DNA of 64,000 nt from Nocardia sp. BMG51109 (GTDB lineage: Bacteria; Actinomycetota; Actinomycetes; Mycobacteriales; Mycobacteriaceae), in assembly GCF_000526215.1 (NCBI RefSeq), contig NZ_JAFQ01000004.1:8184001-8248000 (forward strand). The letters are read 5' to 3'. The notes under the pieces are model-generated. The model made no database searches and was not told the DNA's origin. It was given only the letters and a program-made list of their open reading frames with translations. Position numbers and translations under genes: made by a program. Positions 43,233 through 64,000 of this stretch are shown piece by piece (the stretch's first letter is position 1; every line of letters starts with the position of its first letter).

Positions 43233-44141
43233 TCAATGCGCGAGAGCAGGTATCCCACTTGCCAATGTGACGCAGTACCAGAGGGTGTACAGCACATACG
43301 TCGTGTTGTCCGACCTGGAGTTACGCAGGCGGATCACGCGATAGGAAATGATCAGGCAGACGACGGCGCCGACGCCTCCGAGCACTACGGCCGCGACCGG
43401 CGCATGCCGGTAGAGCAGCAGGTACAACAGCACTGGATAGACGACGAAGGCCGTGCCGAATACCGTGCGGGCGGCCCGCTCTCCGAAAACCACGACGGCG
43501 GTGCGCCGACCGATGGCCAGATCCCCGGCGACGTCGCGCAAATCCTGCAGCGACACCAGTAATCCCAGCGGTACGGCGATCGCCAGTATCCACGACCACG
43601 CGGCGGAAGTGAGCGGAGTGACCAGCTGCCATGCGGCCGCCAACTGCGCGACGGTACCCGCGACCATGGCGGCGTTCTTGCCCCACCAGACACGAGCGCC
43701 GCCAAAATGATTGTGCCACAACCACGCCGCAACCCACAGCATGCCCCACTCGATGACCCCTAGCGCGGCGCCCATACCCAGGAACGCCCCACTGACCACG
43801 AGCAGCCGCCACCACGCGCCCCGCGGTGTCACCGCCCCGACGACCAGCGGCCGGTGCGGCTTGTTCAGCCGGTCCTCCTCGATGCCGGTGAGCTGATTCG
43901 ACAGGTTGAACGTGTAGATATAGAGCCAGAAGTAGGCGACGCACAGCAACGCCTCCTCCGGCAGTTCCGCGAGGGGCCGGCCGGACGTGGCCCACGCCGC
44001 ACCCGCGAACGTCGTCGCCGGGACGACCGTGGCGGTCAGGTCGCCCCAGGTGAACGACCAGCACAGGACGAGCTCGCGCCACGCGGCGAAAGCGCCCCTG
44101 CCGACCGCCCGATGTAACGGTGCCGCCGAGGTTGTGGTCAT
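43233..44141 (-). CDS. UbiA-superfamily membrane prenyltransferase or terpene cyclase
   Basis: The 302-residue integral membrane protein has about eight hydrophobic helices. The first Asp-rich region reads NQLTGIEEDRLNKPHRPL and the second SLQDLRDVAGD, both normal for UbiA-fold enzymes that bind a polyprenyl diphosphate. The EEDRLNKPHRP form also resembles UbiA-type terpene cyclases such as those found in fungi. It lies 25 bp downstream of a P450, suggesting a two-step pathway of prenyl transfer or cyclisation followed by oxidation. Confidence 0.82.
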   Translation of the reverse strand: MTTTSAAPLHRAVGRGAFAAWRELVLCWSFTWGDLTATVVPATTFAGAAWATSGRPLAELPEEALLCVAYFWLYIYTFNLSNQLTGIEEDRLNKPHRPLVVGAVTPRGAWWRLLVVSGAFLGMGAALGVIEWGMLWVAAWLWHNHFGGARVWWGKNAAMVAGTVAQLAAAWQLVTPLTSAAWSWILAIAVPLGLLVSLQDLRDVAGDLAIGRRTAVVVFGERAARTVFGTAFVVYPVLLYLLLYRHAPVAAVVLGGVGAVVCLIISYRVIRLRNSRSDNTTYVLYTLWYCVTLASGIPALAH

Positions 44142-46971: not shown

Positions 46972-47019
46972 TTCGTGCGTCAACGGTGTTCGTGCGTCGG
47001 TGTTCGTGCGTCAACGGTC
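46972..47019. repeat. Short direct repeats TTCGTGCGTC
   Basis: TTCGTGCGTC occurs three times at 14-18 bp intervals, the outer copies followed by AACGGT. The last copy reaches the stop codon of the NRPS gene on the other strand. Confidence 0.7.
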
Positions 47020-50000
47020 AGAAATGGTAAGTGGCACAACCAACTCGGATGCCCGCGCCCACACTGACGATCAACCCGATATCTCCCCCGCGGACCAGCC
47101 CCGCCTCCCGGCAGTGCCGCAGCGCCAGCGGCACCGACGAGGTGAACAGGTCCGCGTCGGCGGTGACGTCGACGATCCGGCCGCGGGGCACGTCGAGCCG
47201 GTCGGCGAACTCGTCGAGGAATCCGGCCGAGATCTGCGGCGCGCAGATCACGGCGAAATCGGCGAGCGGGCGGCCGAGCCGGTCGAGAAATTCCGTGACC
47301 GTCTCGTCGAGGTATTTCAGGTAGCGGTCGTGCACGTCCTGGGCGACGCGGACCTCGAGGCCGACGTCGGCGAGGATGCGGGAGTAGGAGCTCACCGCCT
47401 CGAGTTCCTCGGGGTAGGTGGCGAAGTGGAACTCGCCGAATCCGGATTCGTCGTCGGACTCGGCCAGCAGCATCGCCGAACCCACGTGCGCGATTCCGCG
47501 GCGTTCGAGCGGGCGGCCGGGCCGGTCCGGATCCGCCTCCGCCGCGACGACCAGTCCCGCCCGGATCGACCCGGCTCCGATCGCCGCCGAGACGACATCG
47601 CAGGCCTCCAGGAATCCGGCCGCACCGTCGATGAGGTCGCAGGCGAGCGTTCCGTCGTCGGTCGGCCGGTCGGGATCGTCGTTGATCGCCAGGTCGGCGG
47701 CGATGAACGTGGCCGTCGCCGGTTCGACCATGTACTCGTCGCGAAATGTCCCGGCGTACAACAGCAGTCCGATATCCGACTTCGCGACGGTGGAGCGGTC
47801 CAGGCAGTCGGCGGCCGCCGCCACCGCGAGGGCGACCGCGGTCTGCTCGCCGCGCGGCGACGCCGTTCCGAGCCCGTCGACCCGCACCCGCGCGCGGCGC
47901 GGTGGCGCGGCCCGGGACGGTGCGGGCTCGGTGGCGTGCCCATTCCCGTTGCCGTCGTTGCGGAGCCGGTCCGGCAGACCGTCGAAGGTGTACAGCGCCG
48001 CGCCGATGGTCTGCCCGGAGCCGGTGATACCGAACAGCATACGATCGCCCGGCACCAGCCGGCCCTGCTGGACGAGATCGTTGATCGCTACGAAATGCGT
48101 TGTGGAGGCGGTATTTCCGCGATGTTCCAGATTGCAGATCGTATTGTCCGGATGCGAGACCGTCCGGCCGAACAGCCGGTTGATCGTCGTCGACGCGTCG
48201 CGGATGGACGCCTCGGACGTCTGGTGCATCAGGATGTGATCGACCGATTCCGGCGACCAGCCGTGCCCGTCCAGCAGGCCCGTCGCGAAGGGCACGGACT
48301 TGCGCACCGCCACCGCGGTCTGCTCGACGGCCTTGGTGTGCATGATCGCGCCGCCGTGCGGCTGATCGGTCCGCTTGCCGATGCACAGCCGGGAGTACTT
48401 GGCGAGGGTCCGCAGCCGCAGGTCGTGGAAGCCGACCGCCGCGCTGTCCGAACGCTCCAGGATGACGGCCGCGCCCGCGTCGCCGACGGTGAGACAGGCC
48501 AGCCGATCGTCGAGGAAGTCGGTGATCTCGTGCTGCGCCGTGCGGGCGATATGCGAGATGTACTCGCCGCTGACCACCATCGCGGTGCGCACGAGGCCCT
48601 GCCGCAGATACTGGTCGGCCAGCCAGATCCCGGTGAACATTCCGGCGCAGGCGTTGGAGACGTCGAAGGTCAGGGCGTTGTCCATGCCGAGTGCCGCGCG
48701 CAGCCGCAGCGACATGCTCGGCTCGTAGACGAATCGGTCGTCCGGGCCCTCCACCCGGGAGATGTTGGTGCAGATGAGCAGGTCGATATCGCGCCGGGCA
48801 TGGCGGGAGCGGTCCAGGCAGCGCTCGGCCGCCGCGGTGGCCAGATCGGAGCTGAACTGTCCCGGCTCCACCACCCGGCGGGTCCGGATCCCGGTGAGCT
48901 GTTCGAGCGGGACCTCGACCTGCCGATCGCAGCCGCCGACGACGTCGTCGGTCGACAGCACCTGCTCGGGCAGGTAGACGCCGATGCTGTCGATAACGGT
49001 GTTGCCCGGCAGCAGATTTCGCTCGATGGCCGGCCGCTCGGCCGGTCTCTCGGCGGGTCGCTCGGCGGTCTCCTCCCGTACCGGTTGTTCCTGCGCGGCA
49101 GGTATTTCCGAGACGACGACCGCATCCGCGATCGCCGCGACGGTCCGGTGCCGGAACACGATCTCCGGGGTCAGTTCCATCCCCCGCTCCCGCGCCTCGG
49201 CGCAGACCTGCATGATCTGGGTCGAGGTGCCGCCGAGTTCGAAGAAGTCGTCGCCGATGCCCACCCGGTCGACGCCCAGCGCCGCCTGCCACAGTTCGGC
49301 GAGGACGGCGTCGGTGTCGTCGCGCGGCGGCCGGTAACCGGCGGCCAGGTCGGGACGGGCCGTATCCGGTTGCGGCAGCGCCCGCTCGTCCCGCTTGCCG
49401 TTGGCGGTGGTGGGGATGCGCTCGAGGGTGACGAATCGGCCCGGCAGCATGGCGTCGGGCAGGCTGCGCTGCAACAGGGTTCGCAGATCGGCCGGGCGCG
49501 GCGGGGCCGCCGGATCGACCGGGACGACGTAGGCCACCAGGCCGGCGCCCCCGCCGTCGGTGCGGACGACCACCGCGGCCTCGCTGACGGTGGAACTCGC
49601 GACGAGGGCGGCCTCGATCTCCGCCGGCTCGATCCGCACACCGCGGATCTTCACCTGACTGTCGGAGCGCCCGCCGTATTCGACGGCTCCGTCGGGCCGG
49701 TACCGGGCCAGATCGCCGGTCCGGTACAGGATGCCGTCCCGGTCGCCGTCGTTCGCGTCCGGGTCGCGCACGAACCGCTGCGCGGTCAGTTCCGGCCGGC
49801 CGACGTAGCCCTCGGCCACCCCGATGCCGCCGATGTAGAGCTCCCCGGTCACGCCGACGGGGCAGGCGACCATGTCGCGGTTGAGGATTCGGATCCGGGT
49901 GTTGGCGATCGGGTGGCCGATCGGCACGACCGGATCGCGGTCTCCGCGTACGCAATCGAAGGACGTCACGTCGATGGCGGCCTCGGTGGGCCCGTACAGA

Positions 50001-52324
50001 TTGTGCAGGCTCGCCGGGAGCGTGCTGAAGAACTCGTTGCGCAGATCGGCCGTCAGGGCCTCGCCGCTGGTGATGACCCGGCGCAGCCCCGTGCAGCGCG
50101 AGGCGCCCGGGTCGGACAGGAAGGTGCGCAGGATCGAGGGGACGAAATGCACCACGGTGATGCCTTCGGCGATGATCGTCTCGACCAGATAGGCGCCGTC
50201 CTGGTGGCCGTCGGGTTCGGCGACGACCACCCGGGCGCCGGCGAGCAAGGGCCAGAACAACTCCCACACCGAGACGTCGAAGTTGGCCGGCGTCTTGTGC
50301 AGTACCGAATCGCCGTCCGAGAGCGGATAGGCGTCCTGCATCCACAGCAGCCGGTTGGCGATGCCCCGGTGGGTGTTCTGCGCGCCCTTCGGGGTTCCGG
50401 TCGATCCGGACGTGAACATCACGTAGGCGATGTCGTCGGGGCTCACCGCGTTCGCGGCGGAATCCCACGGCGGCACCGGTTCCCGGCTCTCGGCGGCATC
50501 GGCGAACAGCATCGAGAACTCGCTGGGCAGCCCCGCCGACGAGGCCCGGTCGGTCAGCCACACGGTGACCGCGGCCTCCGTGCCGATCGTGCGCAGCCGC
50601 TGCGCCGGATGGCGGGGATCGACCGGGAGGAAGGCGGCGCCGGTCAGCAGCACCGCATAGGCGGCGACCACCGACATCTCCGACCGGTGCAGGGCGATGC
50701 CCACCACCGCGCCCGGGCCGGCGCCGACCCCCCGCAGCCGGGCGGCCAGGCGCTCGGCACGCCGTTGCAGCTCTTGGTAGCTGAGGTGCCGGCCGCGGAA
50801 GGTCACGGCGGTGCGATCGGGGGTGCGCCGCACCTGTTCGGTGATCAGCGAATGCAGGCGGTGGTCGCGGAAGCGGTCGTCCCGGGTGTCGTTCCAGCGG
50901 GCCTGATCCGCCCGCTCGGCCTCGGTCAGGATCGGGATCCGGCCGATCGGCAGGTCGGGGTCGTCGACCGCACCGGCCGCCAGGGTCCGCAGGTGATCGG
51001 CGAACCGGCCGATGGTCTCGGTGTCGAACAGGTCGGTGTTGTACTGCAAACCCACCGACAGCGTGCTCTCCCGCTCGGCGACCTGGACCATCAGGTCCAG
51101 CGGCGCGCCGCCCTGCCGGATGGTGACCGGCTCGAGGTCGAGCGCCCCGTCCGGTAGCTCGGCGGTCAGCGCACCGGTCGAGGAGCGCGAGGTCTCCCAG
51201 GCGAAGAACACCTGGTACACCGGTGGATAGGCCGGATCACGCACGGGCTCGAGCTGTTCGGCCAGCAGCGGGAACGGATAGTCCTGGTGGTCGATCGCCT
51301 CCAGCACCGTGCGGCGGGTCCGTTGCAGCAGCGTCCGGTAGCTCGGGTTGTCGCTCAGATCCGAACGCAGCGCGACGGCGTTGATGAAATAGCCGATCAT
51401 CCGGTCCGCGCCCGGCATCGCCCGATGGGCCGTCGGTGATCCGATGATGACGTCGTCGCTGCCCGAATAGCGGTGCAGCAGTGCGATATACGCCGCCAGC
51501 ACGGTGATCTGCAGCGTGACGCCCTCGTCCCGGGCGATCCGGCGCAGCGCGGCGGTCTGCGCCTCGTCCACCTCGAACCGGTGCGTCCGGCCGTCGAAGG
51601 TCTGCACGACCGGACGCGGGCGGCGGCCGGGCAGTTCGAGGTGCGGCAGTTCACCGGACAGCCGGGCCTCCCAGTAGTCCTCGAGTGCCCGGCCGCGGTC
51701 GCTGTGCAGCAGATCCTGTTGCCACCGAATGTGATCCGCGTACGAATGCGTGATCGGCGGCAGCGGGTGGGACGGATCGGCGTACAGCGTGCTGAGCTCC
51801 GCGAGCAGGATGTCGAACGACCAGAAGTCGATGACGATGTGCGGAACGGCGATGACCAGCAGGTGGTGCCGCGGGTCCAGCCGCAGGACGGTCACGTCGA
51901 GCAGGGGTGCGGCTTGCAGGTCGACGTGCCGGTCGAGGGTGTCGTCCAGCCACCGGTCCCGCCGGGCCACGTCCCAGTCGGAGGCGTCCACGACGTGCAA
52001 CGGCACGTGCGCCCGGGGCAGGACGACGGCCCGCGGCCTGCCGTTCACGTCGCGGTATTCGGTGCGCAGCGTCTCGTGGCGGGCGACGAGTGCGTCCAGG
52101 GCGGCCGCCAGCCTGCGATGCTCGAAGACTCCGCGAATGCGGCCCGCGTACAGCAGGTTGTAGGAGGCGCTGTCGGGAGCCAGCCGCGAATGCAGCCACA
52201 GTCCGCGCTCACCGTGTGACAGATCGCGTTCGATGGGTCGGGATGCGCGCTCCTGTAACAATTTTCGTAGCAACGCGCGTTTATCGTCCGCGTCGAATTC
52301 GGACGTGTCCAGCTGAACAGTCAT
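47018..52324 (-). CDS. NRPS module (C-A-T) fused to two ketosynthase-III-like domains
   Basis: The gene encodes 1768 residues. The condensation domain (core PHIVIDFWS, about 163) keeps the catalytic His and Asp. The adenylation domain (FTSGSTGTPKG, about 640; YGPTEAAIDV) has specificity residues I read as D-V-W-H-I-S-L-I-D-K, close to the serine code DVWHxSLxDK. The carrier has GGTST (about 1033). From about 1108 a KSIII-like domain shows Cys in NACAG (about 1226), His in MHQT (about 1366) and Asn in RGNTAST (about 1406). From about 1480 a second KSIII-like domain has DGAAG for the Cys site and APQIS for the His site, so it looks catalytically dead. ATG 52324 overlaps the PKS stop as ATGA. 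No thioesterase or reductase is present. Confidence 0.9.
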   Translation of the reverse strand: MTVQLDTSEFDADDKRALLRKLLQERASRPIERDLSHGERGLWLHSRLAPDSASYNLLYAGRIRGVFEHRRLAAALDALVARHETLRTEYRDVNGRPRAVVLPRAHVPLHVVDASDWDVARRDRWLDDTLDRHVDLQAAPLLDVTVLRLDPRHHLLVIAVPHIVIDFWSFDILLAELSTLYADPSHPLPPITHSYADHIRWQQDLLHSDRGRALEDYWEARLSGELPHLELPGRRPRPVVQTFDGRTHRFEVDEAQTAALRRIARDEGVTLQITVLAAYIALLHRYSGSDDVIIGSPTAHRAMPGADRMIGYFINAVALRSDLSDNPSYRTLLQRTRRTVLEAIDHQDYPFPLLAEQLEPVRDPAYPPVYQVFFAWETSRSSTGALTAELPDGALDLEPVTIRQGGAPLDLMVQVAERESTLSVGLQYNTDLFDTETIGRFADHLRTLAAGAVDDPDLPIGRIPILTEAERADQARWNDTRDDRFRDHRLHSLITEQVRRTPDRTAVTFRGRHLSYQELQRRAERLAARLRGVGAGPGAVVGIALHRSEMSVVAAYAVLLTGAAFLPVDPRHPAQRLRTIGTEAAVTVWLTDRASSAGLPSEFSMLFADAAESREPVPPWDSAANAVSPDDIAYVMFTSGSTGTPKGAQNTHRGIANRLLWMQDAYPLSDGDSVLHKTPANFDVSVWELFWPLLAGARVVVAEPDGHQDGAYLVETIIAEGITVVHFVPSILRTFLSDPGASRCTGLRRVITSGEALTADLRNEFFSTLPASLHNLYGPTEAAIDVTSFDCVRGDRDPVVPIGHPIANTRIRILNRDMVACPVGVTGELYIGGIGVAEGYVGRPELTAQRFVRDPDANDGDRDGILYRTGDLARYRPDGAVEYGGRSDSQVKIRGVRIEPAEIEAALVASSTVSEAAVVVRTDGGGAGLVAYVVPVDPAAPPRPADLRTLLQRSLPDAMLPGRFVTLERIPTTANGKRDERALPQPDTARPDLAAGYRPPRDDTDAVLAELWQAALGVDRVGIGDDFFELGGTSTQIMQVCAEARERGMELTPEIVFRHRTVAAIADAVVVSEIPAAQEQPVREETAERPAERPAERPAIERNLLPGNTVIDSIGVYLPEQVLSTDDVVGGCDRQVEVPLEQLTGIRTRRVVEPGQFSSDLATAAAERCLDRSRHARRDIDLLICTNISRVEGPDDRFVYEPSMSLRLRAALGMDNALTFDVSNACAGMFTGIWLADQYLRQGLVRTAMVVSGEYISHIARTAQHEITDFLDDRLACLTVGDAGAAVILERSDSAAVGFHDLRLRTLAKYSRLCIGKRTDQPHGGAIMHTKAVEQTAVAVRKSVPFATGLLDGHGWSPESVDHILMHQTSEASIRDASTTINRLFGRTVSHPDNTICNLEHRGNTASTTHFVAINDLVQQGRLVPGDRMLFGITGSGQTIGAALYTFDGLPDRLRNDGNGNGHATEPAPSRAAPPRRARVRVDGLGTASPRGEQTAVALAVAAAADCLDRSTVAKSDIGLLLYAGTFRDEYMVEPATATFIAADLAINDDPDRPTDDGTLACDLIDGAAGFLEACDVVSAAIGAGSIRAGLVVAAEADPDRPGRPLERRGIAHVGSAMLLAESDDESGFGEFHFATYPEELEAVSSYSRILADVGLEVRVAQDVHDRYLKYLDETVTEFLDRLGRPLADFAVICAPQISAGFLDEFADRLDVPRGRIVDVTADADLFTSSVPLALRHCREAGLVRGGDIGLIVSVGAGIRVGCATYHF

Positions 52325-55300
52325 GACGCCTTGTCTCCTTCCGAGGCGAGCAGGTCGGACAACAATCGGTCGACGTCGTCGTCGGGCAGCGTGTCCAGTC
52401 GGTCGAGCAGATGCCTGGCCTGAGCAGGCTTGTCGGTTGCGGCCGGGGCGGCGGCGGCCCGGGTCGCGGAGGCGGGTGTGCCGGTGTCGAGCTGGCCGAG
52501 CAACCAGGCGGTGAACTCGGCGATGCTGGGTCCTTCGAGCAGCTTGACCAGCGGGATGGTGACGGCGAGGTCGCGCTGGATGCGGGTGCGCAACTCCATC
52601 GCGCCGAGCGAGTCCAGGCCCAGGTAGCGCAGCGGCCGGTCGGTTTCGATGGCATCGGCGTCCATGCCGAGCCGCCGGGCCACCACGGCGATCAGATAGT
52701 CGGCCACCATGCCGGGGCGGGCGCCCGGTTCGGCCTGCGCCAGGGCGGCGGCGACGTCGCCGTCGGCCTGCGGTGACGCCGACTCGGACGCGGCCGGTGT
52801 CAGTTCGCGCAGGCGCGGGATGTCGGAGAGGTCGGCCGAACCGGTGCCGGTGGTCGGCAACACCATCGACTGCACCGGATCCGCCGGCAGCACCCGATCC
52901 AGGGCCGCGAGACCGGCGGCCGGTTCGATCATCCCGATCCCCATGCTGCGGACGTGCGCGGACCGGTCGTCGCGGACGGCCAGACCGATCTCGCCCCACG
53001 GGCCCCAGGCGATGCTGGTGGCCGGCAGCCCGGCCGCCCGCCGATACCGGGCGAGGGCGTCGAGGAAGACGTTGGCCGCCGCGTAGTTGGCCTGGCCGGG
53101 CGCGCCCAGGGTGCCGGCCGCCGAGGAGAAGTACACGACGAACTCCAGCGTCCGGCCGGCGGTCGCGACGTGCAGGTTCCACGCGCCCGCCGCCTTGGCT
53201 GCGAGCACCGTGTCGACGGCGGCCTCGTCGAGATGTTCGATCAGTCCGTCCGCCAATGTGCCCGCGACGTGCAGGATTCCGCGCAGCGGCGGTCCGGCCC
53301 GGCCGATGCTCGCGACCAGCTCGCCGACCTGGTCGGCCCGGCCGACGTCGACGTGCCGCACGGAGACCTCGGTACCGGCAGCGCGCAGTTGCTCGATCAC
53401 GGTGGCGGCGTGGGCATTCGGCGCGCGGCGGCCGACGAGCACGAGATGGCGGGCGCCCCGCTCGACCGACCACCGCGCCAGCTCGATACCGATACCGCCC
53501 AGGCCGCCGGTGATCAGATAGGTGCCGTCGGCATGCAACCGCGGCTCGGTGATGTGGATGTCCGGTGCCGCGCCCGCGGCCACCAGCACCACCTTGCCGA
53601 TGTGCCGGGCCCGCGCCATGTGCTCGAACGCCGCCTGCGCCTCACCGAGATCGAACACGGTGACCGGCAGCGGCGCGTACTCGCCCGCCTCGACGTGCCC
53701 CATGATCGTGCGCAGCGCGGCCGCGACCCGGTCGGGACGCTGCCACGCCGTCGCGGTGAGATCGACGGTGAAGTGCGAGACGTTCTGCCGCAACAGCCAC
53801 AGATCCAGCGTGCGCCGCTCGTGGATGTCGCGCTTGCCGATCTCGACGAAGCGTCCGAACGGGCGCAGCAGAGCAAGACTGCGCGACACCGCCTCGCCGG
53901 ACAGCGAGTTCAGCACCACGTCCACGCCCGTGCCGCCCGTGGCGTCCACGATCTCGCGGGCGAAGGCCAGCGACCGAGAATCCATCACATGTTCGATACC
54001 CATGCGGCGCAGGTGGTTTCGCTTCTCCTCGCTACCGGCCGTCGCGTAGATCTCGGCGCCGATCCGGCGCGCGATCTGAATCGCGGCCAGGCCGACGCCA
54101 CCGGTGGCGGCGTGGATCAGCACCCGCTCCCCCGGCTCCAGCCGGGCGAGCTCGCACAGTGCCCGGTGGGCGGTGAGAAAGGCGACCGGGATGGTGGCCG
54201 CATCCGCCGGGCTGATCCCGTCCGGCACGGGCACCACGAGTTCGGCGGCGGTGGTGACGTAGGAACCGAACGCGGGCATGGCGATCGCGGCCACGACATC
54301 GCCGGGGGCGATGCCCTCGACTCCCGCGCCGACCGCGACGACGGTCCCGGCGCATTCCGCGCCGAGCACCGCGTGGCTGCCGTTCTCCGGCGGGATGACC
54401 CCGAGCGCCTCCACCACGTCGTGAAAGTTCAAGCCGGCGGCCCGGACCCGGATCTCCACCTCGCCCGGTCCGGGTTCCCGGCGTGCGACCCGCTGCAACC
54501 GCAGCGCGTCCAGCAACCCGGGCGCGGCCTGCCGCACCACGTAGCCCTCGTCCGGTTCGGCCGGGCGCACGACCGGTTCCGGTTCCGCGACAGGGGCGAT
54601 GCGAGCGACGAAGCGCTGGTCCGCGCGCAGGGCCAGTTCGGTTTCGGGGTTGTCGGCCGTCAATTCGCCGACGAGGGCGTCGTATTCGCGGTCGTCCGGC
54701 GCCGGGCTCATATCGACACGCGTGCACCGCAATTCGGGATACTCGTGTTCGATTGTCCGGGCCAGGCCCCACGTCGGCGCGGTGACGGCGGCGTCGAGGC
54801 AGGTCTGTTCGTCGAGCGCGGCGCCCGGCGGCAGATCCTGCGTTCCGCGGGTGACCAGATACAGCCGGGGCGGGCGCGCGGGCCAGTCGTAGCGGGCCAG
54901 ATCCTGTGCCCGGCCGAGGAATTCGAGGATCGACTCGCGCACCGAAGCGGGGATGTCCGGAAGCGCCGATTCGGTGGCGGGACCCGTCGCCAGGTAGACC
55001 ACGCCGGCCACCTCGTCGTCGGCGGCGAGGACGTCGTACAGGTTCGTCTCGCGATCGCAGACCGAGACGGCGCACCCGGCCGCCGCCAGGCGCTCCCGCA
55101 GCTCGTCCGCCGCGCCGCCCGCGCCGACGATCAGCCAGGGCCCCGCCGCCCGCGGCGATTCGGCCGGGAGCGGCGCCGGATCCCAGCGCACGGCGTGGAA
55201 CCAGTTCCGCGGGCCCTCGGCCTCCCGCTGGAGTTGTTCGGCCAGGCAGCGCACCCGCAGGCCCGCCCCGTCGGCCAGCACCGTGCCGTCCTCCGCGACG

Positions 55301-58300
55301 ATCTCGAAGTCGCCCTCCAGCAGCCCGGCCTCGGAGATGCCCCGGTTGACCATGTGGCATTCCGCCGCCGCCGTGAGATCACCGCGGATGCGCAGCCGGT
55401 CCAGCCCGACCGGCAGATAGATACTGCCCGCGAGCGTATCGGCGGAATCGACGGTGGCGGCCAGGGTCTGAAACGCCGCGTCGAGCCGGATCATGGTGTC
55501 GGCCAGCTCCGATCCGGTGGATATGGGAGCCAGGCTCGCCACCGCATCGGCGCCGCAACGCCGGATCTCCACGATCCGCCGGAAGGCCGGACCGTACTCG
55601 AGACCGGCCTCGGCGAGGGTTCGGTAGAACTCCGCCGCCGGCACGCTTACCGACGAGTCGTGCGAATCCGCCTGCGGGCGGCCGCGACCCGCGACCGAGT
55701 CGCCGCGGGCCGAGACACCGTCGGCCGGGACGTCATCCCCGCCCACGACACCCCCGGCCACACCATCGCCGGTCATGCCTTCGGCCGCAGCGCGGCCGTC
55801 GGCGCCTCCCGCTGCCATATCCGCCGGCCCGTGGCCGTTGCGGGCCCGGCCGGCAGCACGCGCACCCTGGACCGCACTGCCCCGGGCCACTCCGCTCCCG
55901 GCCGCGCTGCCGCCGGACGTGTCCAGGGCACGAATCACCCCGTCGCTCAGCCGTTCCCAGGGCGAATCGGCGACCGAGCGGTCCGCCGCGAGAATTCGCA
56001 CCGAGGCCGAGTCACCGGAACGGTCGAGCACGGCGAGCTGGACCGGCCGGGCCGTACCCGGCTCCAGGGTCAACGCCGTGGTGAACTCGAAATCGGCCAC
56101 CTCGCAGCCGGTTCCGCCGAACAGCTGCCGCGCCGCCGTGCACGCCAGCGCCACGTACAGCGCGGCCGGGACGACGGGTACCGACCGCACGCGGTGATCG
56201 GCCAGGCCGGGCATCGTATCCAGCGAGACCTCCGTCTGCCAGAAGGCCGTGCCCGCGTGAATCGCCGAATCGAGCCGCACCAGCTCACCCCTGGCCGCCC
56301 CGGACGGAGCGGTGAGATCGTCGGTGATCCAGTGGATTTCGCGCTGCCACGGATAACGCGGCGGCCGGACGAAGTGACCGCCGTGCGGGTACTGCAGCTG
56401 CCATTGCACCGGATAGCCGGCGCAGTACAGCTCGCCCACCGAGGCCAGCAGCTCCGCCTGCTCGTCGGTGTCGCGGCGCATCGACTCGACAATGGTTGTC
56501 GCCGTGACGCTTCCGCCCGGAGCCGGGCGGCGGGTGTCGCGGATGTCGATGAGCGCCGCGGTCAGCACCGGATGCGGGCTCACCTCCAGCAGCAGGTCGT
56601 AGCCGTCGTCGACCATCCCCCCGACGGCCGCCTCGAACTGCACCGTCTCACGGAGGTTCCGGCCCCAGTACCCGGCCGACAGCTCGCCGCCGTCGTGGAT
56701 CTCCCCGGTGACCGTCGAGTAGATCGGCACGGTCCCGGTCCGCGGCCGGATCCCCGACAGGTCGGCCTCCAGCGCCGGGCGCAGCTCGTCCATGTGCGGG
56801 CTGTGCCCCGCCACATCGGATTTGATCGCGCGGCAGAACACGTCCTCCCGTTCGAACTGCTCCAGCGCGGCGCGCACCGCCTCGGCATCCCCGGACAGCA
56901 CGGTCGCGCCGGGACTGTTCACCGCGGCGATACCGATGCCGGCGCCGAATTCGGCCAGCCGCGGGGCGAGCCGGTCGGCGGGCAGTTCGACCACGGCCAT
57001 CGCGCCGCGACCCGACAGCGTCCGCAACAGCCGCGCGCGCTCGCAGATGACCGCCGCCGCATCGGGCAGTTCCAGCGCGCCGGCCACGTGGGCGGCGGCC
57101 ACCTCGCCCATGCTGTGCCCGGTGACGGCGTCGGGAACGACACCGACCGACCGCCACCACGCCGCCAGTGCCACCTGGATCGCGAACAGCGTCGGCTGTA
57201 GGACGTCGATCTCGTCGAGGCGGGAACGCTCGGCGTCGGCGTGCAACTCGTCGATGACCGACCAGCCGGTGTTGCGGCGGATCTCTCGATCACAGGCGGT
57301 CAGGGCCGCGCGGAAGGCCGGCTCCCGGGTGAACAGCTGCTTGCCCATGCCCTGCCACTGCGAGCCCTGACCGGAGAACACGAAGCCGATCCGCGGCGTG
57401 CGGCCGGGCCGGCGGCCGACGGCCGTCCCGGTGCGCGCCGCGCCGTTCAGATAGGCCGACAGTTGTTCGGCGGCTTCGTCTTTCGACTTCGCCACGACCG
57501 TGAGCCGCTCGTCCAGATGGGTGCTGCGCACCGCCGCCGAATAGGTCAGCGACGACCAGTCCGGCGCGTCCTCACCGGTATCGGTCAGCACGTCGACGTA
57601 GCGCCGCGCCAGCTCGCGCAGCGCCTCCGGCGACTGCGCGGAGATCGGCAGGATCGCGTGGTCGCGCGCGCCCTCCCGGGGCCGACGCTCGACACCCGGC
57701 TGCCGGGGCGCGGCCGTCAGCACCGCGTGGGAGTTGGTGCCGCCGAAGCCGAACGAGCTGACGCCCACCGGCCCCGGATCCGGCCACTCCTCGAGCCGGT
57801 CACAGACGCGCAGCGTGGCCAGATCGATGGCCGGGTTCGGCTGCCGGTAGTGCAGGCTCGGCGGCAGCGTCCGATGGTGCAGCGCCAGCGCCGCCTTGAT
57901 GGTTCCGGCGATGCCCGCGGCCGCCTCGAGATGGCCGATATTCGTCTTGACCGAGCCGATGACACAAGGGTTTCCGGGGTCGCGACCCGCACCGAGCACG
58001 GCTGCCAACGCGCCGGTCTCGATGGCGTCACCGATCGACGTGCCGGTCCCGTGCGCCTCGACATAGCCGACGTCGCCCGGTGCGATCCCCGCATCGGCGT
58101 AGGCGCGGGCCAGCACGGCCCGCTGCGACCGCCCGTTGGGCGCCATCAACCCGTTGGTCCGCCCATCCTGGTTGACCGCGCTCCCCCGGATCACCGCGTA
58201 CACCGGATGCCCCTCCGCCATCGCCCGCGACAGCGGTTCCAGCGCCACGACGGCCGCGCCCTCACCGCGCACGTACCCGTCGGCGGAGGTGTCGAAGGTC

Positions 58301-61020
58301 TTGCACCGCCCGTCGGGCGCCACCACCCCGGCCCGGGCCATATTGATGCCCAGGTCCGGCGACAGCATCACGTTGACCCCGCCCGCGACCGCGAGCGTGC
58401 TCTCCCCCGTGCGCAGCGACCGGCAGGCGTCGTGCACCGCGACCAGCGACGACGAACAGGCGGTGTCGACGGCCACGCTCGGCCCGCGGAAGTCGAAGAG
58501 GTACGACACCCGGTTCGCCGCGACGCTCACGGCATTGCCGGTGCCCGAGTACGCCTCGATCCGGTCCTCGCTGCGGTAGAAGGTGCGCCCGTAGTCGTTG
58601 GACGAAATACCCACGAAGACACCGACATCGGTGCCGGCCAGCCGCTCGACGTCCAGTCCGGCATCCGCCAGCGCCTCCCAGACCACCTCCAGCATCAGCC
58701 GCTGCTGCGGATCGATGTGCTTGGCCTCGCGCGGCGAGATCCCGAAGAACTCGGCATCGAAACCGCGCACGTCGTCGAGGAATCCGCCCCAGCGCACCTC
58801 GCGGTGCTCCCAGCGGTCGACGGGCACCGCGGTGACGGCGTCCACGCCGGTGGTCAGCAGATCCCAGAACGCCTCGGTGCCGTCGGCGCCGGGGAACCGG
58901 CAGCCGATGCCGACGATGGCGATGGGCTCGCCCGTCTCGGCGCCGCCCCCGGCCTGCGGTTCGGCCGCGACCTCGGCGGAGGGAGAGTCCTCGGTCAGGG
59001 CGCGGGCGAGATCGGCGATGGTCGGGTGCTCGTAGATCAGCGCCGGCGCAATCTCGGTGCCGAGGTGTTCGCCCAGCGCGCCGACGAGTTTGATGCCGCG
59101 CACCGAATCCAGGCCGTAGTAGGCGAACAGCTGCCCGGTGTCGATATCGCTTGCCGGAAGCCGGAACTCGCGGGACAGATGATCGACCATCCAGTCCTCG
59201 AGTTCCCGCGCGCTCACCGTGGTCGCCGGTGCGGCGGCGGCCTCCGCGGCGCGATCGGCCGGCGCCGCGGTGGCCTGGCCCGACCATTCGCCGAGGACCT
59301 TCAGGCTGTCGTCACCGAGCTTTTCGCGGCAGGCGAACCGCTGCACCTTTCCGCTCGTCGTGCTCGGCAGGCTGTATGCGCGCACGAGCACGATCTGCGA
59401 CACCGCGACCTCGTGTTCCTGCGCCACCGCGGTCGCGATGGCGCGGCACACCGTGTCCGCGTCGAGTTCGTCGGTCCGGTCGCGCTCCACCTCCTGGACG
59501 ATCACCAACCGCTCGTCCACCGATCCCGGCACGGAGAAGGCCGCGCCGCGGCCGCGCAGCAGTATCGGATCGCTCTCCTGCACGGTGTTCTCGATATCGT
59601 CCGGGTACAGGTTGCGGCCGCGGATGATGATCAGATCCTTGAGCCGCCCCGCGACGAAAAGCTCTCCCTCGCCGACGAATCCGAGGTCGCCGGTGCGCAG
59701 GTAGGGCCCGGACGGCTCGCCGCCGGGGGTGCTCAGCCGGGCGCCGAAGGTGCGGGCCGACGCCTCCGGCTGGCCCCAGTAGCCGCGAGCGACCGCATCG
59801 CTGGCCACCCACACCTCGCCCACGGTGCCGTCCGGGCACCGCTCGAAGGTGTCCGGATCGGCGACGACGACCCGGGTGCCCTCCTGCGGGCGCCCGCACC
59901 CGACCATGGTCACCGCGTCGGCATCGGTCTCCGCCGCCTCGACCGCCTCGCCTTCGCTCAAGGCGCTGCGCCGCAACGTCTTTCGCAGCGGTCCATCCGC
60001 GCGCGGCGACCCCGTCACGAGCAGCGTCCCCTCGGCCAACCCGTACACCGGTTGCAGCGCCGAGGCACGGAATCCCGCGGGGGCGAAGGCCTCCGCGAAG
60101 CGGCGCATCGTATCCGGGCGCACCGCCTCGGCGCCGCACATCGCGACCCGCCAGCCGCTCAGGTCCAGTTCCGCGCGCTCCTCGGGTGTCGTGGTGTCCA
60201 CGCAGAGGTCGTAGGCGAAGTTGGGCGCCGTGGTGACCAGGGCCCGCTTGCCGGAGATCCGGCGCAGCCACCGAATCGGGCGCTGCACGAACGAGATCGG
60301 CGACATCAGCTCGCCGCCGTAACCGGACTGGATGGTTCCCAGCACCGCGCCGACCAGGCCCATATCGTGATGCAGCGGCAGCCAGAACACCGCGGACAAC
60401 CCGTCGGTCTCGTCGAGATCGCCGTAGGCCGCCCGAATGCTGCCCAGGTTGTGCACGAAATTCCGGTGCGTCATCATGACGCCCTTCGGATCCCCGGTGG
60501 AGCCCGAGGTGTATTGCAGCACCATCAGGTCGTCCGGCCGCGGATCGCCGGCCGGGCGATGTTCCGCGGTCGCCGGCAGGATGTCGGAGGCGCACCAGCT
60601 CATCGCGGGCGCCGCCTCGGTGGACTCGATCCCCGACCGGTCCCGGTCCAGCGCGTCCGCCGAGCTGAGCGCGAACCCGGCCCCGGAGTCGCTGACGATC
60701 TTGGCTATCCGGAACTTCTGGCGCTTGCCGACGGGCGAATAGGCCGGGACGGCGACCGCCCCCGAATACGCGCATCCGAAGATCGCCGCGACGAAATGCA
60801 GCGGATTCGAATGCATGACGAGAACCCGTTCGCCGGCGGCCCCCGACCCGGTCAGCCAGGACGCGACACCCAGTGCGCGTTCGTGCAATTCGCCATAGGT
60901 CCAGCGCTCGGCAACGGTTTCCCCGTCGGGAAGATAGGAGAATACATCGCGGTCGGGATGAGCCTCGGCGCGGGAGCGCAGCAGATGCGCCAGCGTGAGC
61001 TCGGATTCATCGTTGGTCAT
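52321..61020 (-). CDS. FAAL-type modular PKS (FAAL-ACP-KS-AT-DH-ER-KR-ACP)
   Basis: The gene encodes 2899 residues. The fatty-acyl-AMP ligase has YTSGSTGDPKG (about 173) and LPLHHDMGLVG. The first carrier has YGLDS (about 635). KS carries TACSSS (about 855), EAHGTGT and KTNIGH. AT carries GHSMG (about 1303) and VAGH (about 1403), an ethylmalonyl-like signature. DH has His in ADHRVRSVPVVP (about 1608) and Asp in LDAAFQ (about 1846), separated by an Ala/Gly-rich insertion (about 1697-1793). A structural KR half, ER (HAATGGVGLAA, about 2308), KR (TGGLGGIG, about 2506; Tyr in ANYAAANVF) and ACP (GLDSL, about 2800) follow. ATG 61020 has no clear RBS; the frame is open to 61284. It would load a fatty acid, add one fully reduced extender and pass it to the NRPS. 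Confidence 0.92.
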   Translation of the reverse strand: MTNDESELTLAHLLRSRAEAHPDRDVFSYLPDGETVAERWTYGELHERALGVASWLTGSGAAGERVLVMHSNPLHFVAAIFGCAYSGAVAVPAYSPVGKRQKFRIAKIVSDSGAGFALSSADALDRDRSGIESTEAAPAMSWCASDILPATAEHRPAGDPRPDDLMVLQYTSGSTGDPKGVMMTHRNFVHNLGSIRAAYGDLDETDGLSAVFWLPLHHDMGLVGAVLGTIQSGYGGELMSPISFVQRPIRWLRRISGKRALVTTAPNFAYDLCVDTTTPEERAELDLSGWRVAMCGAEAVRPDTMRRFAEAFAPAGFRASALQPVYGLAEGTLLVTGSPRADGPLRKTLRRSALSEGEAVEAAETDADAVTMVGCGRPQEGTRVVVADPDTFERCPDGTVGEVWVASDAVARGYWGQPEASARTFGARLSTPGGEPSGPYLRTGDLGFVGEGELFVAGRLKDLIIIRGRNLYPDDIENTVQESDPILLRGRGAAFSVPGSVDERLVIVQEVERDRTDELDADTVCRAIATAVAQEHEVAVSQIVLVRAYSLPSTTSGKVQRFACREKLGDDSLKVLGEWSGQATAAPADRAAEAAAAPATTVSARELEDWMVDHLSREFRLPASDIDTGQLFAYYGLDSVRGIKLVGALGEHLGTEIAPALIYEHPTIADLARALTEDSPSAEVAAEPQAGGGAETGEPIAIVGIGCRFPGADGTEAFWDLLTTGVDAVTAVPVDRWEHREVRWGGFLDDVRGFDAEFFGISPREAKHIDPQQRLMLEVVWEALADAGLDVERLAGTDVGVFVGISSNDYGRTFYRSEDRIEAYSGTGNAVSVAANRVSYLFDFRGPSVAVDTACSSSLVAVHDACRSLRTGESTLAVAGGVNVMLSPDLGINMARAGVVAPDGRCKTFDTSADGYVRGEGAAVVALEPLSRAMAEGHPVYAVIRGSAVNQDGRTNGLMAPNGRSQRAVLARAYADAGIAPGDVGYVEAHGTGTSIGDAIETGALAAVLGAGRDPGNPCVIGSVKTNIGHLEAAAGIAGTIKAALALHHRTLPPSLHYRQPNPAIDLATLRVCDRLEEWPDPGPVGVSSFGFGGTNSHAVLTAAPRQPGVERRPREGARDHAILPISAQSPEALRELARRYVDVLTDTGEDAPDWSSLTYSAAVRSTHLDERLTVVAKSKDEAAEQLSAYLNGAARTGTAVGRRPGRTPRIGFVFSGQGSQWQGMGKQLFTREPAFRAALTACDREIRRNTGWSVIDELHADAERSRLDEIDVLQPTLFAIQVALAAWWRSVGVVPDAVTGHSMGEVAAAHVAGALELPDAAAVICERARLLRTLSGRGAMAVVELPADRLAPRLAEFGAGIGIAAVNSPGATVLSGDAEAVRAALEQFEREDVFCRAIKSDVAGHSPHMDELRPALEADLSGIRPRTGTVPIYSTVTGEIHDGGELSAGYWGRNLRETVQFEAAVGGMVDDGYDLLLEVSPHPVLTAALIDIRDTRRPAPGGSVTATTIVESMRRDTDEQAELLASVGELYCAGYPVQWQLQYPHGGHFVRPPRYPWQREIHWITDDLTAPSGAARGELVRLDSAIHAGTAFWQTEVSLDTMPGLADHRVRSVPVVPAALYVALACTAARQLFGGTGCEVADFEFTTALTLEPGTARPVQLAVLDRSGDSASVRILAADRSVADSPWERLSDGVIRALDTSGGSAAGSGVARGSAVQGARAAGRARNGHGPADMAAGGADGRAAAEGMTGDGVAGGVVGGDDVPADGVSARGDSVAGRGRPQADSHDSSVSVPAAEFYRTLAEAGLEYGPAFRRIVEIRRCGADAVASLAPISTGSELADTMIRLDAAFQTLAATVDSADTLAGSIYLPVGLDRLRIRGDLTAAAECHMVNRGISEAGLLEGDFEIVAEDGTVLADGAGLRVRCLAEQLQREAEGPRNWFHAVRWDPAPLPAESPRAAGPWLIVGAGGAADELRERLAAAGCAVSVCDRETNLYDVLAADDEVAGVVYLATGPATESALPDIPASVRESILEFLGRAQDLARYDWPARPPRLYLVTRGTQDLPPGAALDEQTCLDAAVTAPTWGLARTIEHEYPELRCTRVDMSPAPDDREYDALVGELTADNPETELALRADQRFVARIAPVAEPEPVVRPAEPDEGYVVRQAAPGLLDALRLQRVARREPGPGEVEIRVRAAGLNFHDVVEALGVIPPENGSHAVLGAECAGTVVAVGAGVEGIAPGDVVAAIAMPAFGSYVTTAAELVVPVPDGISPADAATIPVAFLTAHRALCELARLEPGERVLIHAATGGVGLAAIQIARRIGAEIYATAGSEEKRNHLRRMGIEHVMDSRSLAFAREIVDATGGTGVDVVLNSLSGEAVSRSLALLRPFGRFVEIGKRDIHERRTLDLWLLRQNVSHFTVDLTATAWQRPDRVAAALRTIMGHVEAGEYAPLPVTVFDLGEAQAAFEHMARARHIGKVVLVAAGAAPDIHITEPRLHADGTYLITGGLGGIGIELARWSVERGARHLVLVGRRAPNAHAATVIEQLRAAGTEVSVRHVDVGRADQVGELVASIGRAGPPLRGILHVAGTLADGLIEHLDEAAVDTVLAAKAAGAWNLHVATAGRTLEFVVYFSSAAGTLGAPGQANYAAANVFLDALARYRRAAGLPATSIAWGPWGEIGLAVRDDRSAHVRSMGIGMIEPAAGLAALDRVLPADPVQSMVLPTTGTGSADLSDIPRLRELTPAASESASPQADGDVAAALAQAEPGARPGMVADYLIAVVARRLGMDADAIETDRPLRYLGLDSLGAMELRTRIQRDLAVTIPLVKLLEGPSIAEFTAWLLGQLDTGTPASATRAAAAPAATDKPAQARHLLDRLDTLPDDDVDRLLSDLLASEGDKAS

Positions 61021-61147: not shown

Positions 61148-61942
61148 CTACCGTTTATCCGTCTGTCCGGCGGCGATTTCCGCGGTGATCCGGTCCGCGC
61201 CGGACCATCGCTGTACCTTCGCCGACAGCATCGGCGCGGCCGCGCCGAAACGAGCGCCCCATCGCAGGCTCGAGGATGCGACATCTATTTCGCCGACGTT
61301 CTTCTCCACGGCCCGGACGACCGCGGCGGCGACCTGCGCGGAGGTCACCGTCCGGACGTACCGCGGCAGCCGGACCAGGCCGGCATCGGCGAACAGACCG
61401 GCGTCGGCGACGAATCCGGGAAATATCGTCGACACCCCGATTCCCGCGGGGCGCAGTTCCTCCCGCAGGGCCAGGCCGAATCCGCGCAGGGCGAACTTGG
61501 TGGCGTTGTAGACCGAGGCCCGGGGCGACGCCGTCTTCCCGGACAGCGACGACATGAACACCAGGTGCCCGCGGCCGCGCTCCCGCATCGGGCCGATCAG
61601 CTGCCGGGCGAGGATCATGTGCGCGCGCAGGTTGACGTTCAGGGCGCGGTCCATCTCCGGCACCGACAGATCCGTCAGCAGCCCGCTGCACGGCAGTCCC
61701 GCATTGCCGACCAGCACGTCGATCGGGCCCGCGGCGGCGGCGAGCCGCTCCGCGGCATCCCGCTCGGCCAGATCCGCGGGTATCACCTCGCCGCCGCATT
61801 CCTTCGCGAGCAGGCGCAGCGCGGACTCCTTGCGGCCGGTCAATATCATCTCCGCACCGTGGCGGGACAGTTCCCGCGCGATCGCCCCGCCGAGGCCACC
61901 CGATGCACCGGTGAGTAGAACTCGATTACCGTCGAACTTCAC
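61148..61942 (-). CDS. SDR family oxidoreductase of the PKS-NRPS operon
   Basis: The 264-residue classical SDR has TGASGGLG, NAG in GNAGLP, the catalytic Ser in FMSSLSG and YNATK as YxxxK. A C-terminal segment FPGFVADAG follows. GTG 61942 with AGGGG is preferred over ATG 61963. The gene sits between the SRPBCC gene and the PKS on the same strand; the 127-bp gap to the PKS start leaves room for a second promoter. It may tailor the lipopeptide or reduce a keto group left by the KSIII step. Confidence 0.88.
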   Translation of the reverse strand: MKFDGNRVLLTGASGGLGGAIARELSRHGAEMILTGRKESALRLLAKECGGEVIPADLAERDAAERLAAAAGPIDVLVGNAGLPCSGLLTDLSVPEMDRALNVNLRAHMILARQLIGPMRERGRGHLVFMSSLSGKTASPRASVYNATKFALRGFGLALREELRPAGIGVSTIFPGFVADAGLFADAGLVRLPRYVRTVTSAQVAAAVVRAVEKNVGEIDVASSSLRWGARFGAAAPMLSAKVQRWSGADRITAEIAAGQTDKR

Positions 61943-62004
61943 AGTTCCCCTCCCGAACCTCATTTGTCGAATTGTCGCCGTAGCCCGACGGACCCGGATC
62001 CGGA

Positions 62005-62445
62005 TCAGTTCGATCCGGTCGCGATCCGTCTCTCGAGCCTTCCGGCACTGCTGTCTATGATTCGGCGGGCGATGATTCGCCCGGCCACATTGGCCGATCG
62101 GGCCAGCAGGCCCTCTCGGACGGGATAGCTGATTCGCACCGCCACGCGGCAGGAATCGGCACGTACCGGCTCGAAGTCGACGTCGACCCGAGCATCGTGT
62201 CCGCTGGTCTCCACCAGACCTATCGATGTGTCGCGTATCCAGGATTCGGTCGCGAGCGTGACCTGATGTTTGACGGCTCCGATCGACATCTCCAGAGTGA
62301 AACCCTCGGGGAGATCCTCGTGCCGCTGATATCCGGACACCCCGGCCACCCATTCGGGAATCTTCTCGTAATCGAAGACGTAGTCGAAGACGACATGTAC
62401 CGGAGCCGGCACGATTCGGGAAACCGAGACGACATCACTGGGCAT
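62005..62445 (-). CDS. SRPBCC (START/polyketide-cyclase-like) protein
   Basis: The 146-residue protein shows the helix-grip fold pattern: VSVSRIVPAPVHVVFDYVFD at the N-terminus, a beta-rich middle and a long C-terminal helix (VAGRIIARRIIDSSAGRLERR). This family binds hydrophobic ligands, and some members act as cyclases or aromatases. ATG 62445 has AAAGGGA, and it overlaps the MMPL stop by 11 bp. In this operon it may hold or cyclise the acyl product. Confidence 0.8.
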   Translation of the reverse strand: MPSDVVSVSRIVPAPVHVVFDYVFDYEKIPEWVAGVSGYQRHEDLPEGFTLEMSIGAVKHQVTLATESWIRDTSIGLVETSGHDARVDVDFEPVRADSCRVAVRISYPVREGLLARSANVAGRIIARRIIDSSAGRLERRIATGSN

Positions 62446-64000
62446 GCGATTCCCTTTCCGGTTCCGGCGTGCCGGCCGGTTCCACGGCATCGGCCCGCTC
62501 CGCCGGCACCCGGCTGCCCTGCCGGCGTTTCCCGAACGGCGACCACCAGTTGGCCTCGCCCATCAGGACGACCAGCGCGGGCACCAGGATCATCCGCACC
62601 AGCGTGGCGTCGACCAGGATCGCGACGACCATTCCGAGGCCGACCAGTTTCACGATCGACAGCCCGGACGCCGCGGCGGCGCCGGTGACGATGACCAGCA
62701 ACGCCGCCGCCGCGGTCACCACCCGCCCGGTCCCGGCGACGCCCTGGATGACCGCGTTCCGGGTGTCGGCGCCGGCCTCGCGGGCCTCCAGCATCCGCGC
62801 GAGCAGGAACACCTCGTAGTCGGTGGACAGGCCGAAGACGGTGGCCACGACGATCACCACGCCCGCGACCGGTAGCGGCCCCGGCGTGATGCCGAACAGG
62901 TCCGCCGCATGCCCGCCCTGGAATATCCAGGTCACCACGCCGAGGCTGGCCGCCAGGCTGAGCGCGGCCATCACGACCGCCTTCACCGGCAGCAGGACCG
63001 ACCGGAAGGCGAGGAACATCAGCACCAGGATCGCCGCGAGCATCGCCAGCGCCATCTTGGGGAAGTTCGTCACGATCGCGCGATAGCTGTCGGCGTTGAC
63101 GGCGTTCTCGCCACCGACCAGAACGGTCGAATCCGGCGGCGGCGGAAGCGATCTGAGCCGTTCCACCGTGTCCAGGGCCGGGGTGGTGAAGTCCGTGTCG
63201 GTGAGCACCACATGGACGATCGCGAAGTCCCGGCCCCGATCGGTGGCCAGCGCGAAGCGCACTCCGTCGGTGACACCGGCGCGCGCTATGAGGTCGTCCA
63301 CCGCGATCTCGCTCGGCGGTCCGCCGTCGGCGCCGCGGACGACGAGATCCGCTCCGTTGGTGGCGTTCGGGAACTTCTGCACGATCATTTCCTGCGCCAG
63401 GCGGGCGGGATTGTCGGCGGGCAGTCCCGAACTGTCCAGATTCGCCATCCGCACACCGGACACCGGCAGCGTGAACAGCAGCAGGATCGCGATGACCCCC
63501 GTCGCGAGCAGGATCGGCCTGCGTGTCGTCGCCGTGGCGAATCGTTCCCAGAATCTCCGCGACCGGTCCTCGCCGGACCGCACCCGGCCGCGCTGCAGGC
63601 TCAGCGCATCGATCCGATGCCCGAGCACGGCCAGCGCGGCCGGCACGACGGTCACCGACAGGCAGGCGGAGACGGCGACCGCCGACATCGCCCCGAACCC
63701 CAGCGACCGCATCGCGGACACCGGAAAGACCAGCATTCCGAGAAATGCGCACACCAGTATCGATCCGGAGAACAGCACGGTACGGCTCGCCGTCGCCGTC
63801 GTCACCCGGACGGCCCGCGCGACATCGCCGGATCTCGATAATTCCTCGCGGAATCGGCTGACCGTCAACAGCCCGTAGTCGATGGCCATGCCCAGGCCGA
63901 TGATCGACGCGGTATTAACCGCAAATGAACTTACATCGGTAAATTCGGAGAGCACCCGCAGGAACGCCAGCGAGGCGACGATCGTCAGAACTCCGATGAT
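62435..64000 (-). CDS. MMPL-family (RND) transporter, 5' end outside window
   Basis: The visible 521 residues cover the C-terminal part of an MmpL-like lipid exporter. They contain the helix GLGMAIDYGLLTVSRFREEL, a large extracytoplasmic loop with the LDSSGLPADNPARLA porter segment, and the second DYE-type helix FGLSTDYEVFLLARMLE. The tail after about residue 480 is hydrophilic. The frame is open through base 64000. It is the first visible gene of the PKS-NRPS operon, so it probably exports the lipid product, as MmpL proteins do for mycobacterial lipids. Confidence 0.9.
   Translation of the reverse strand: MIGVLTIVASLAFLRVLSEFTDVSSFAVNTASIIGLGMAIDYGLLTVSRFREELSRSGDVARAVRVTTATASRTVLFSGSILVCAFLGMLVFPVSAMRSLGFGAMSAVAVSACLSVTVVPAALAVLGHRIDALSLQRGRVRSGEDRSRRFWERFATATTRRPILLATGVIAILLLFTLPVSGVRMANLDSSGLPADNPARLAQEMIVQKFPNATNGADLVVRGADGGPPSEIAVDDLIARAGVTDGVRFALATDRGRDFAIVHVVLTDTDFTTPALDTVERLRSLPPPPDSTVLVGGENAVNADSYRAIVTNFPKMALAMLAAILVLMFLAFRSVLLPVKAVVMAALSLAASLGVVTWIFQGGHAADLFGITPGPLPVAGVVIVVATVFGLSTDYEVFLLARMLEAREAGADTRNAVIQGVAGTGRVVTAAAALLVIVTGAAAASGLSIVKLVGLGMVVAILVDATLVRMILVPALVVLMGEANWWSPFGKRRQGSRVPAERADAVEPAGTPEPERESHAQ

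Follow-up and report, generated by a model that had tools for sequence, protein, structure and literature searches.

NRPS products are known to be released through hydrolysis, cyclisation, reduction or amide transfer. In the 64,000-nucleotide stretch of Nocardia sp. BMG51109 DNA analysed here (the window), an NRPS ends in two KSIII domains, KSa and KSb, and the closest described systems are enzymes that join acyl chains. For example, LstA/LstB of the lipstatin pathway is an active/inactive KSIII pair like KSa-KSb: one member has C-H-N and the other contributes a Glu, which in LstB is essential. It condenses two acyl chains to an alpha-branched beta-keto acid; unlike KSa-KSb, which follows an NRPS carrier domain in the same polypeptide, it consists of two separate proteins that use acyl-CoA substrates (PMC12141560). 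The LstA residues are C128, H271 and N305; C128A and H271A were inactive with LstB, and LstB E60A was dead though soluble (PMC12141560).

OleA of Xanthomonas shares the fold, the C-H-N set and a Glu117-Pro with KSa-KSb, but is a homodimer with two complete sites. The Glu of one OleA subunit is described as the base in the other subunit's site, and Pro follows it in all but two of the OleA proteins aligned there (PMC7064751). The photopyrone synthase PpyS also joins chains head to head with an essential Glu, which is described as deprotonating the enzyme-bound acyl group and whose change in E105A cost all product; unlike KSa-KSb, PpyS is modelled as a homodimer and yields pyrones (PMC4578411). 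In nocuolin A biosynthesis (NocH/NocG), two FAAL-loaded acyl-ACPs are joined by one ketosynthase to a beta-keto acid, a precedent for carrier-bound substrates, and the passages of PMC11837247 on this step tell of no NRPS fusion.

The NRPS and its terminal KSIII pair

The original prediction placed two KSIII-like thiolase-fold domains after C-A-T, and Pfam and predicted models both agree with this (Table 1). Pfam finds ACP_syn_III at residues 1220-1304 of the tandem region and ACP_syn_III_C in two stretches. AlphaFold predicts the KSa-KSb tandem as a single confident object (pLDDT 90.0, pTM 0.94) with a thiolase fold in both halves, and KSb held up in our check on its fold, being predicted as a thiolase fold when modelled alone too. 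Fold comparison cannot separate OleA from FabH, FabH chains ranking equal or higher for both halves. The tandem is not a chance arrangement, since 419 of the 7990 candidates scored in a search with it fell under E 1e-3 and the 120 matches listed span 99-100% of its length; the closest among the matches listed is a protein of N. terpenica (74% over the tandem). Ahead of the tandem, the C domain has the motif PHIVIDFWS with its second His retained, and the A domain has the code DVWHISLID, which we take to be serine-like.

Table 1. Features of the NRPS gene and its neighbours, in window coordinates
Feature	Position	Strand	Basis or remark
NRPS C-A-T-KSa-KSb, 1768 aa	47018..52324	-	coordinates exact; Pfam; start overlaps PKS stop (ATGA)
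Condensation domain, residues 35-473	50906..52222	-	Pfam, whole-protein E 1.1e-94
Adenylation domain, residues 495-977	49394..50842	-	Pfam: AMP-binding 495-840 and AMP-binding_C 902-977
Carrier (T) domain, Ser1034	49118..49306	-	Pfam: PP-binding 1007-1069
KSa, predicted thiolase fold; E1201-P1202, C1226, H1367, N1404	47975..49003	-	
KSa nucleophile Cys1226 codon	48647..48649	-	
KSb, predicted thiolase fold; without catalytic-site Cys (A1568) or His, E1534-P1535 present	47021..47893	-	
KSb Glu1534 codon	47723..47725	-	aligned with OleA Glu117
PKS FAAL-ACP-KS-AT-DH-ER-KR-ACP, 2899 aa, feeding the NRPS	52321..61020	-	Pfam; stop overlaps NRPS start
Classical SDR (PF00106), possible beta-keto reductase	61148..61963	-	start codon assumed
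Polyketide_cyc2/START-like small protein	62005..62490	-	
MMPL-family transporter (PF03176), probable exporter	62435..64000	-	runs off the window

As originally predicted, KSa keeps Cys (NACAG, C1226), His (MHQT, H1367) and Asn (RGNT, N1404), and does so in all 119 aligned proteins (121 including the query, minus two of at least 1900 aa). A separate multiple alignment took domains from 85 loci: the window, four Nocardia loci and the best 80 of 214 relatives. With the KSa of L092 and the KSb of L096 and L076 dropped for length, and with two KSb from L072, it comprised 84 domains of each kind; many of the rows are close kin and not independent cases. E, P, C, H and N are present in 84/84 of the KSa rows. 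The scan behind the 80 relatives used two KSa motifs, one of which contains the Cys, so that the conservation of this Cys in KSa partly reflects the search itself; KSb played no part in finding them. KSa retains Glu1201 too, although no Cys faces that Glu.

KSb had been predicted to have lost its catalytic residues, which is correct for Cys and His. Across the 119 proteins, the nucleophile position is A (97), G (12), S (6), P (2), N (1) or D (1), and the His position is P in 118 and V in one. In the 84 KSb rows the nucleophile position is occupied by A, G, S, T, N or P, with Cys and His each at 0/84 in the aligned columns, and a search among them for a displaced Cys/His pair found no invariant Cys or His (Cys1507, 1575 and 1763 are common, not invariant). 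What the prediction overlooked, however, is the retained Glu1534-Pro1535. Glu-Pro occurs in 84/84 rows, and E1534, P1535, D1563 and G1570 are the sole invariant columns among 274 well-filled KSb columns. When KSb is aligned with OleA C143A, Glu1534 stands opposite residue 117 and A1568 opposite residue 143. Taken alone, the fragment giving the Glu117 match is weak (E 0.16); the whole KSb matches the same OleA chain at 1.9e-4, and the multiple alignment of the 85 loci puts the OleA Glu in the same column as Glu1534. KSb alone matches FabH in the PDB at 1.8e-9. At the Glu position, FabH has Phe (multiple alignment) and PqsC has Tyr, in Tyr-Pro (a different alignment). The C-H-N of KSa, the Glu-Pro of a KSb that has no Cys, and the confident thiolase-fold models together argue for an LstA/LstB-type heterodimer fused in cis.

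Occurrence and history of the pair

Judged by ORF, the best 80 of 214 relatives together with the window and the four Nocardia loci include KSa/KSb pairs of three kinds: fused in 43 cases (ORF above 1100 aa), in a tandem ORF in 9 and as separate genes in 32. The fused form was found in Nocardia, Mycobacterium, Mycolicibacter, Mycolicibacillus, Ktedonobacteria, Gemmataceae, a Roseimaritima and an Anammoxibacter MAG and one further MAG; KSa-KSb stands behind a separate C-A-T in Rhodopirellula kin and in a Cyclobacteriaceae MAG. NRPS-linked forms span Actinomycetota, Chloroflexota, Planctomycetota and Bacteroidota, and to our knowledge no product is known for any of them. Within Nocardia the distribution is sparse (6 of 150 genomes at E 1e-90), and 17 genomes in a 298-genome sample of the order match at 1e-60, 6 of these over the whole tandem.

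A tree was built from 98 of the 171 rows after near copies had been thinned. In it, the fused, tandem and separate KSa form one clade (100/97), apart from the FabH and OleA references. Within this clade, 14 separate-gene rows make up one group, and all 24 fused and 7 tandem rows make up another together with two separate ones. Among KSb, the fused and tandem rows cluster with a single separate one (32 rows in all, 100/97), and the other 16 separate KSb lie apart in two groups. The deep branching order is unsure, since the tree program flagged long branches. From these groupings, the KSa/KSb pair seems older than its NRPS fusion.

The likeness to LstA/LstB and NltA/NltB proposed in the original prediction was borne out, in that KSa shares its clade with separate-gene LstA/NltA-like proteins, the KSb Glu is kept and some relatives lie beside OleC- or OleD-like genes. 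The names NltA/NltB are taken from that prediction. In two Nocardia clusters, L077 and L080, a KSa gene adjoins a KSb gene and the two show the Glu-Pro/Cys split seen in the window; they differ in that the genes are separate, with OleC- and OleD-like genes behind, and in that their KSa falls in the sister group within the clade. We infer that these are nocardiolactone-type clusters. The relevant passages of PMC7413640 name nocardiolactone clusters, not the NRPS-fused one.

Other arrangements were also seen. For example, in an Anammoxibacter MAG (L088:4490-12004) FAAL, ACP, C-A-T and KSa-KSb make up one 2504-aa protein with no KS/AT match between, and a 967-aa Acrocarpospora protein (L075:9074-11977) has about 310 extra N-terminal residues ahead of KSa-KSb. 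Two mycobacterial separate pairs have a wax ester synthase/DGAT directly after (L105:9923-13360) or nearby (L083:9890-16084), and no OleC match was found in either locus; these could possibly represent a different use of KSa-KSb.

Gene context and substrate clues

A counterpart of the PKS lies upstream in 6/6 Nocardia loci, and an MMPL gene beside the locus in 6/6; no MMPL was found in the non-Nocardia NRPS-linked loci examined. A DH motif pattern requiring Gly gave no match, which is uninformative on DH activity. The SDR stands before the PKS in 2/6 Nocardia loci, the window's own and that of N. bhagyanarayanae, whose counterpart is 67% identical; every other locus gives 34% or less. An amidase-signature enzyme is present in 20/37 NRPS-linked loci and 4/6 Nocardia loci and absent from the window's own locus, and it could remove the N-acyl chain; an alpha/beta-hydrolase likewise occurs in four of the six Nocardia loci. 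Just beyond the window (L027:12077-13171), a PF00756 esterase is encoded near the MMPL gene, and N. bhagyanarayanae has this esterase too. The PF00756 family includes mycolyltransferases.

On the other side of the NRPS gene, UbiA (43233-44141) and CCR (40575-41924) are present only in the window's own locus of the six Nocardia loci and in 0/37 other NRPS-linked loci, and a P450 (44167-45663) only in the own locus and 1/37; because they are near-absent from related loci, all three were left out of the cluster. The UbiA-family membrane protein adjoins the P450 (43233-45663, - strand), for which pentalenene oxygenase is the top NCBIfam match, with a score under the cut-off, and the two may be a separate terpene mini-cluster. 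Two TetR-family regulators (PF00440; 38853-39956 and 45751-46920, + strand) flank the CCR/XRE/UbiA/P450 block; at 53% identity over 364 aligned residues, they look like a duplicated regulator.

Ole-type partners are unevenly distributed. The window genome has no match to the OleC profile NF045786 at 1e-60, and OleC and OleD queries at 1e-15 found nothing in 6/6 Nocardia loci. Among 37 NRPS-linked loci of at least 20 kb, OleC was found in 1, OleD in 7, an extended SDR in 24, a BBE oxidase in 19 and a thioesterase in 5, the last lying after the fused gene in five Ktedonobacteria loci. The mycobacterial extended SDR was considered as OleD and rejected, its best score being to HpnA. Another 37 loci with separate or tandem genes gave OleC in 6 and OleD in 8, the majority, chiefly mycobacterial, being without either; in one of the relatives (L106) KSa-KSb, OleD and OleC stand in a row.

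The Cyclobacteriaceae MAG (L070, Bacteroidota) encodes PKS, C-A-T, KSa-KSb, P450 and PPTase on one strand and, on the opposite strand, an alpha/beta-hydrolase (OleB-like by position only) with OleC-like and OleD-like genes. Its OleC scores 514.6 bits to NF045786 (curated cut-off 900) and 636 to PRK09274 (cut-off 478), and its OleD 361 bits (cut-off 580). Since the single other match of this genome to the KSIII model NF006720 at 1e-20 reads as FabH, without the Glu, KSa-KSb is likely the OleA of this gene set, in a MAG that may be incomplete. With OleC/OleD, SDR, amidase, MMPL and thioesterase content differing between loci, the later steps appear to vary by lineage around a constant condensing core.

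A-domain codes were read for 24 of 43 NRPS-linked loci, the 6 Nocardia loci, 8 of the 120 proteins listed and the query. They are DVWHISLID or close to it in Nocardia and Ktedonobacteria and DPWHFSLID or DPWHISLID in mycobacteria, with one mycobacterial exception (P0013, DAAHSGEIT); L088 has DILQLGLIW, L070 has DILQLGMIW, and others occur elsewhere. We take the two mycobacterial codes to be Ser-like and the last two to be Gly-like. The serine-type module of the original prediction is therefore upheld for Nocardia, Ktedonobacteria and most mycobacterial sequences, but the remaining sequences carry other codes, and serine was rejected as a general feature of the NRPS fusion. The AT motif of the window is VAGH; other Nocardia have VASH or IASH, and Ktedonobacteria have HAFH. 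A second FAAL was found in just 2/43 NRPS-linked loci within the flanks examined: a FAAL-ACP near L060, and an upstream FAAL with a downstream FAAL-ACP at L044.

Proposed reaction and competing readings

That KSa-KSb would work like LstAB/OleA is well supported by the sequence comparisons above. With a probability of about three in four, we propose that the two halves assemble into a thiolase pseudo-dimer in which only one active site, similar to that of OleA/LstAB, is functional and joins an N-acyl-seryl chain and a second acyl group by non-decarboxylative Claisen condensation. The FAAL would load a fatty acid, the PKS would extend it, and the C domain would couple the extended acyl group to serine on the T domain. 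Cys1226 of KSa would then take one acyl group, and Glu1534 of KSb would reach across the dimer and take the alpha proton, on the model of OleA Glu117 and LstB Glu60. Of the chains so joined, one would be the N-acyl-seryl chain delivered by the neighbouring T domain and the other a further fatty acyl group, carried as a CoA or ACP thioester. The alpha-branched beta-keto acid that hydrolysis would give may be converted by reduction to a statine-like gamma-amino-beta-hydroxy acid or may lose CO2 to give a ceramide-like amido ketone, and the product may then be exported by the MMPL protein.

The best PDB matches of KSa, by sequence and by fold, are FabH or PqsD, and C-H-N is the FabH set. KSa could therefore add a malonyl unit to the N-acyl-seryl thioester by decarboxylative condensation, as FabH or the active/inactive KSIII heterodimer PqsBC would, with KSb being structural only. 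We consider this unlikely, given that the Phe of FabH and the Tyr of PqsC (the PqsBC member compared) stand where KSb has an invariant Glu-Pro, and that some relatives lie beside OleC/OleD. PqsC also has Tyr-Pro where KSa has Glu-Pro, and identity with PqsBC was dropped, as was a KS/chain-length-factor pair, because of family and the residue at the Glu position. The latter likeness, raised in the original prediction, holds in form only: the type II PKS pair combines a KASII-type KS with a Gln-for-Cys partner, but the Pfam families here are KSIII and the KSb site is A, G, S, T, N or P.

Release without a thioesterase would also be explained if the N-acyl-seryl thioester cyclised on itself in a Dieckmann-type reaction to form a hydroxymethyl tetramic acid, and serine-derived tetramates would be chemically reasonable. 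This is quite unlikely, however, since the PKS contains a KR, so that no acidic beta-keto position is expected; furthermore, LstAB joins two chains (PMC12141560) and a second FAAL is present at 2 loci. Between the release routes first suggested for the pair, Claisen condensation and acyl transfer, the former is favoured because C-H-N and Glu are both retained. KSIII acyltransferases do exist, and ChlB3 is a weak PDB match, but esterification of the N-acyl-seryl chain onto an alcohol by a CerJ/ChlB3-like activity is very improbable: enzymes of that type change the Asn of C-H-N, which is retained in 84/84 KSa, and the Glu would have no evident role in transfer.

If the Claisen reading is right, the locus may, as a tentative and rather doubtful extension, represent an assembly line that makes sphingoid- or statine-like lipids without PLP, by linking an N-acyl-seryl chain on the carrier domain in cis to another fatty acyl chain. 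Loss of CO2 would then give an N-acyl-2-amino-1-hydroxy-3-ketone, the 3-ketoceramide skeleton, whichever alpha carbon attacks; attack on the seryl carbonyl followed by reduction, with CO2 kept, would give a gamma-amino-beta-hydroxy acid.

The enzyme family is already known, and its fusion to an NRPS as a terminal pair is a new architecture. We found no description of an NRPS fused to a KSIII pair in the open-licence PMC literature searched, which agrees with the original statement that no characterised system has this order, without being proof of it. The subunits of the LstA/LstB heterodimer were insoluble alone (PMC12141560), and the fusion would offer a heterodimer of this type in tethered form. 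A built-in LstAB-type pair would provide an NRPS with release by carbon-carbon bond formation, in which an amino-acid-tipped chain is joined to a second lipid.
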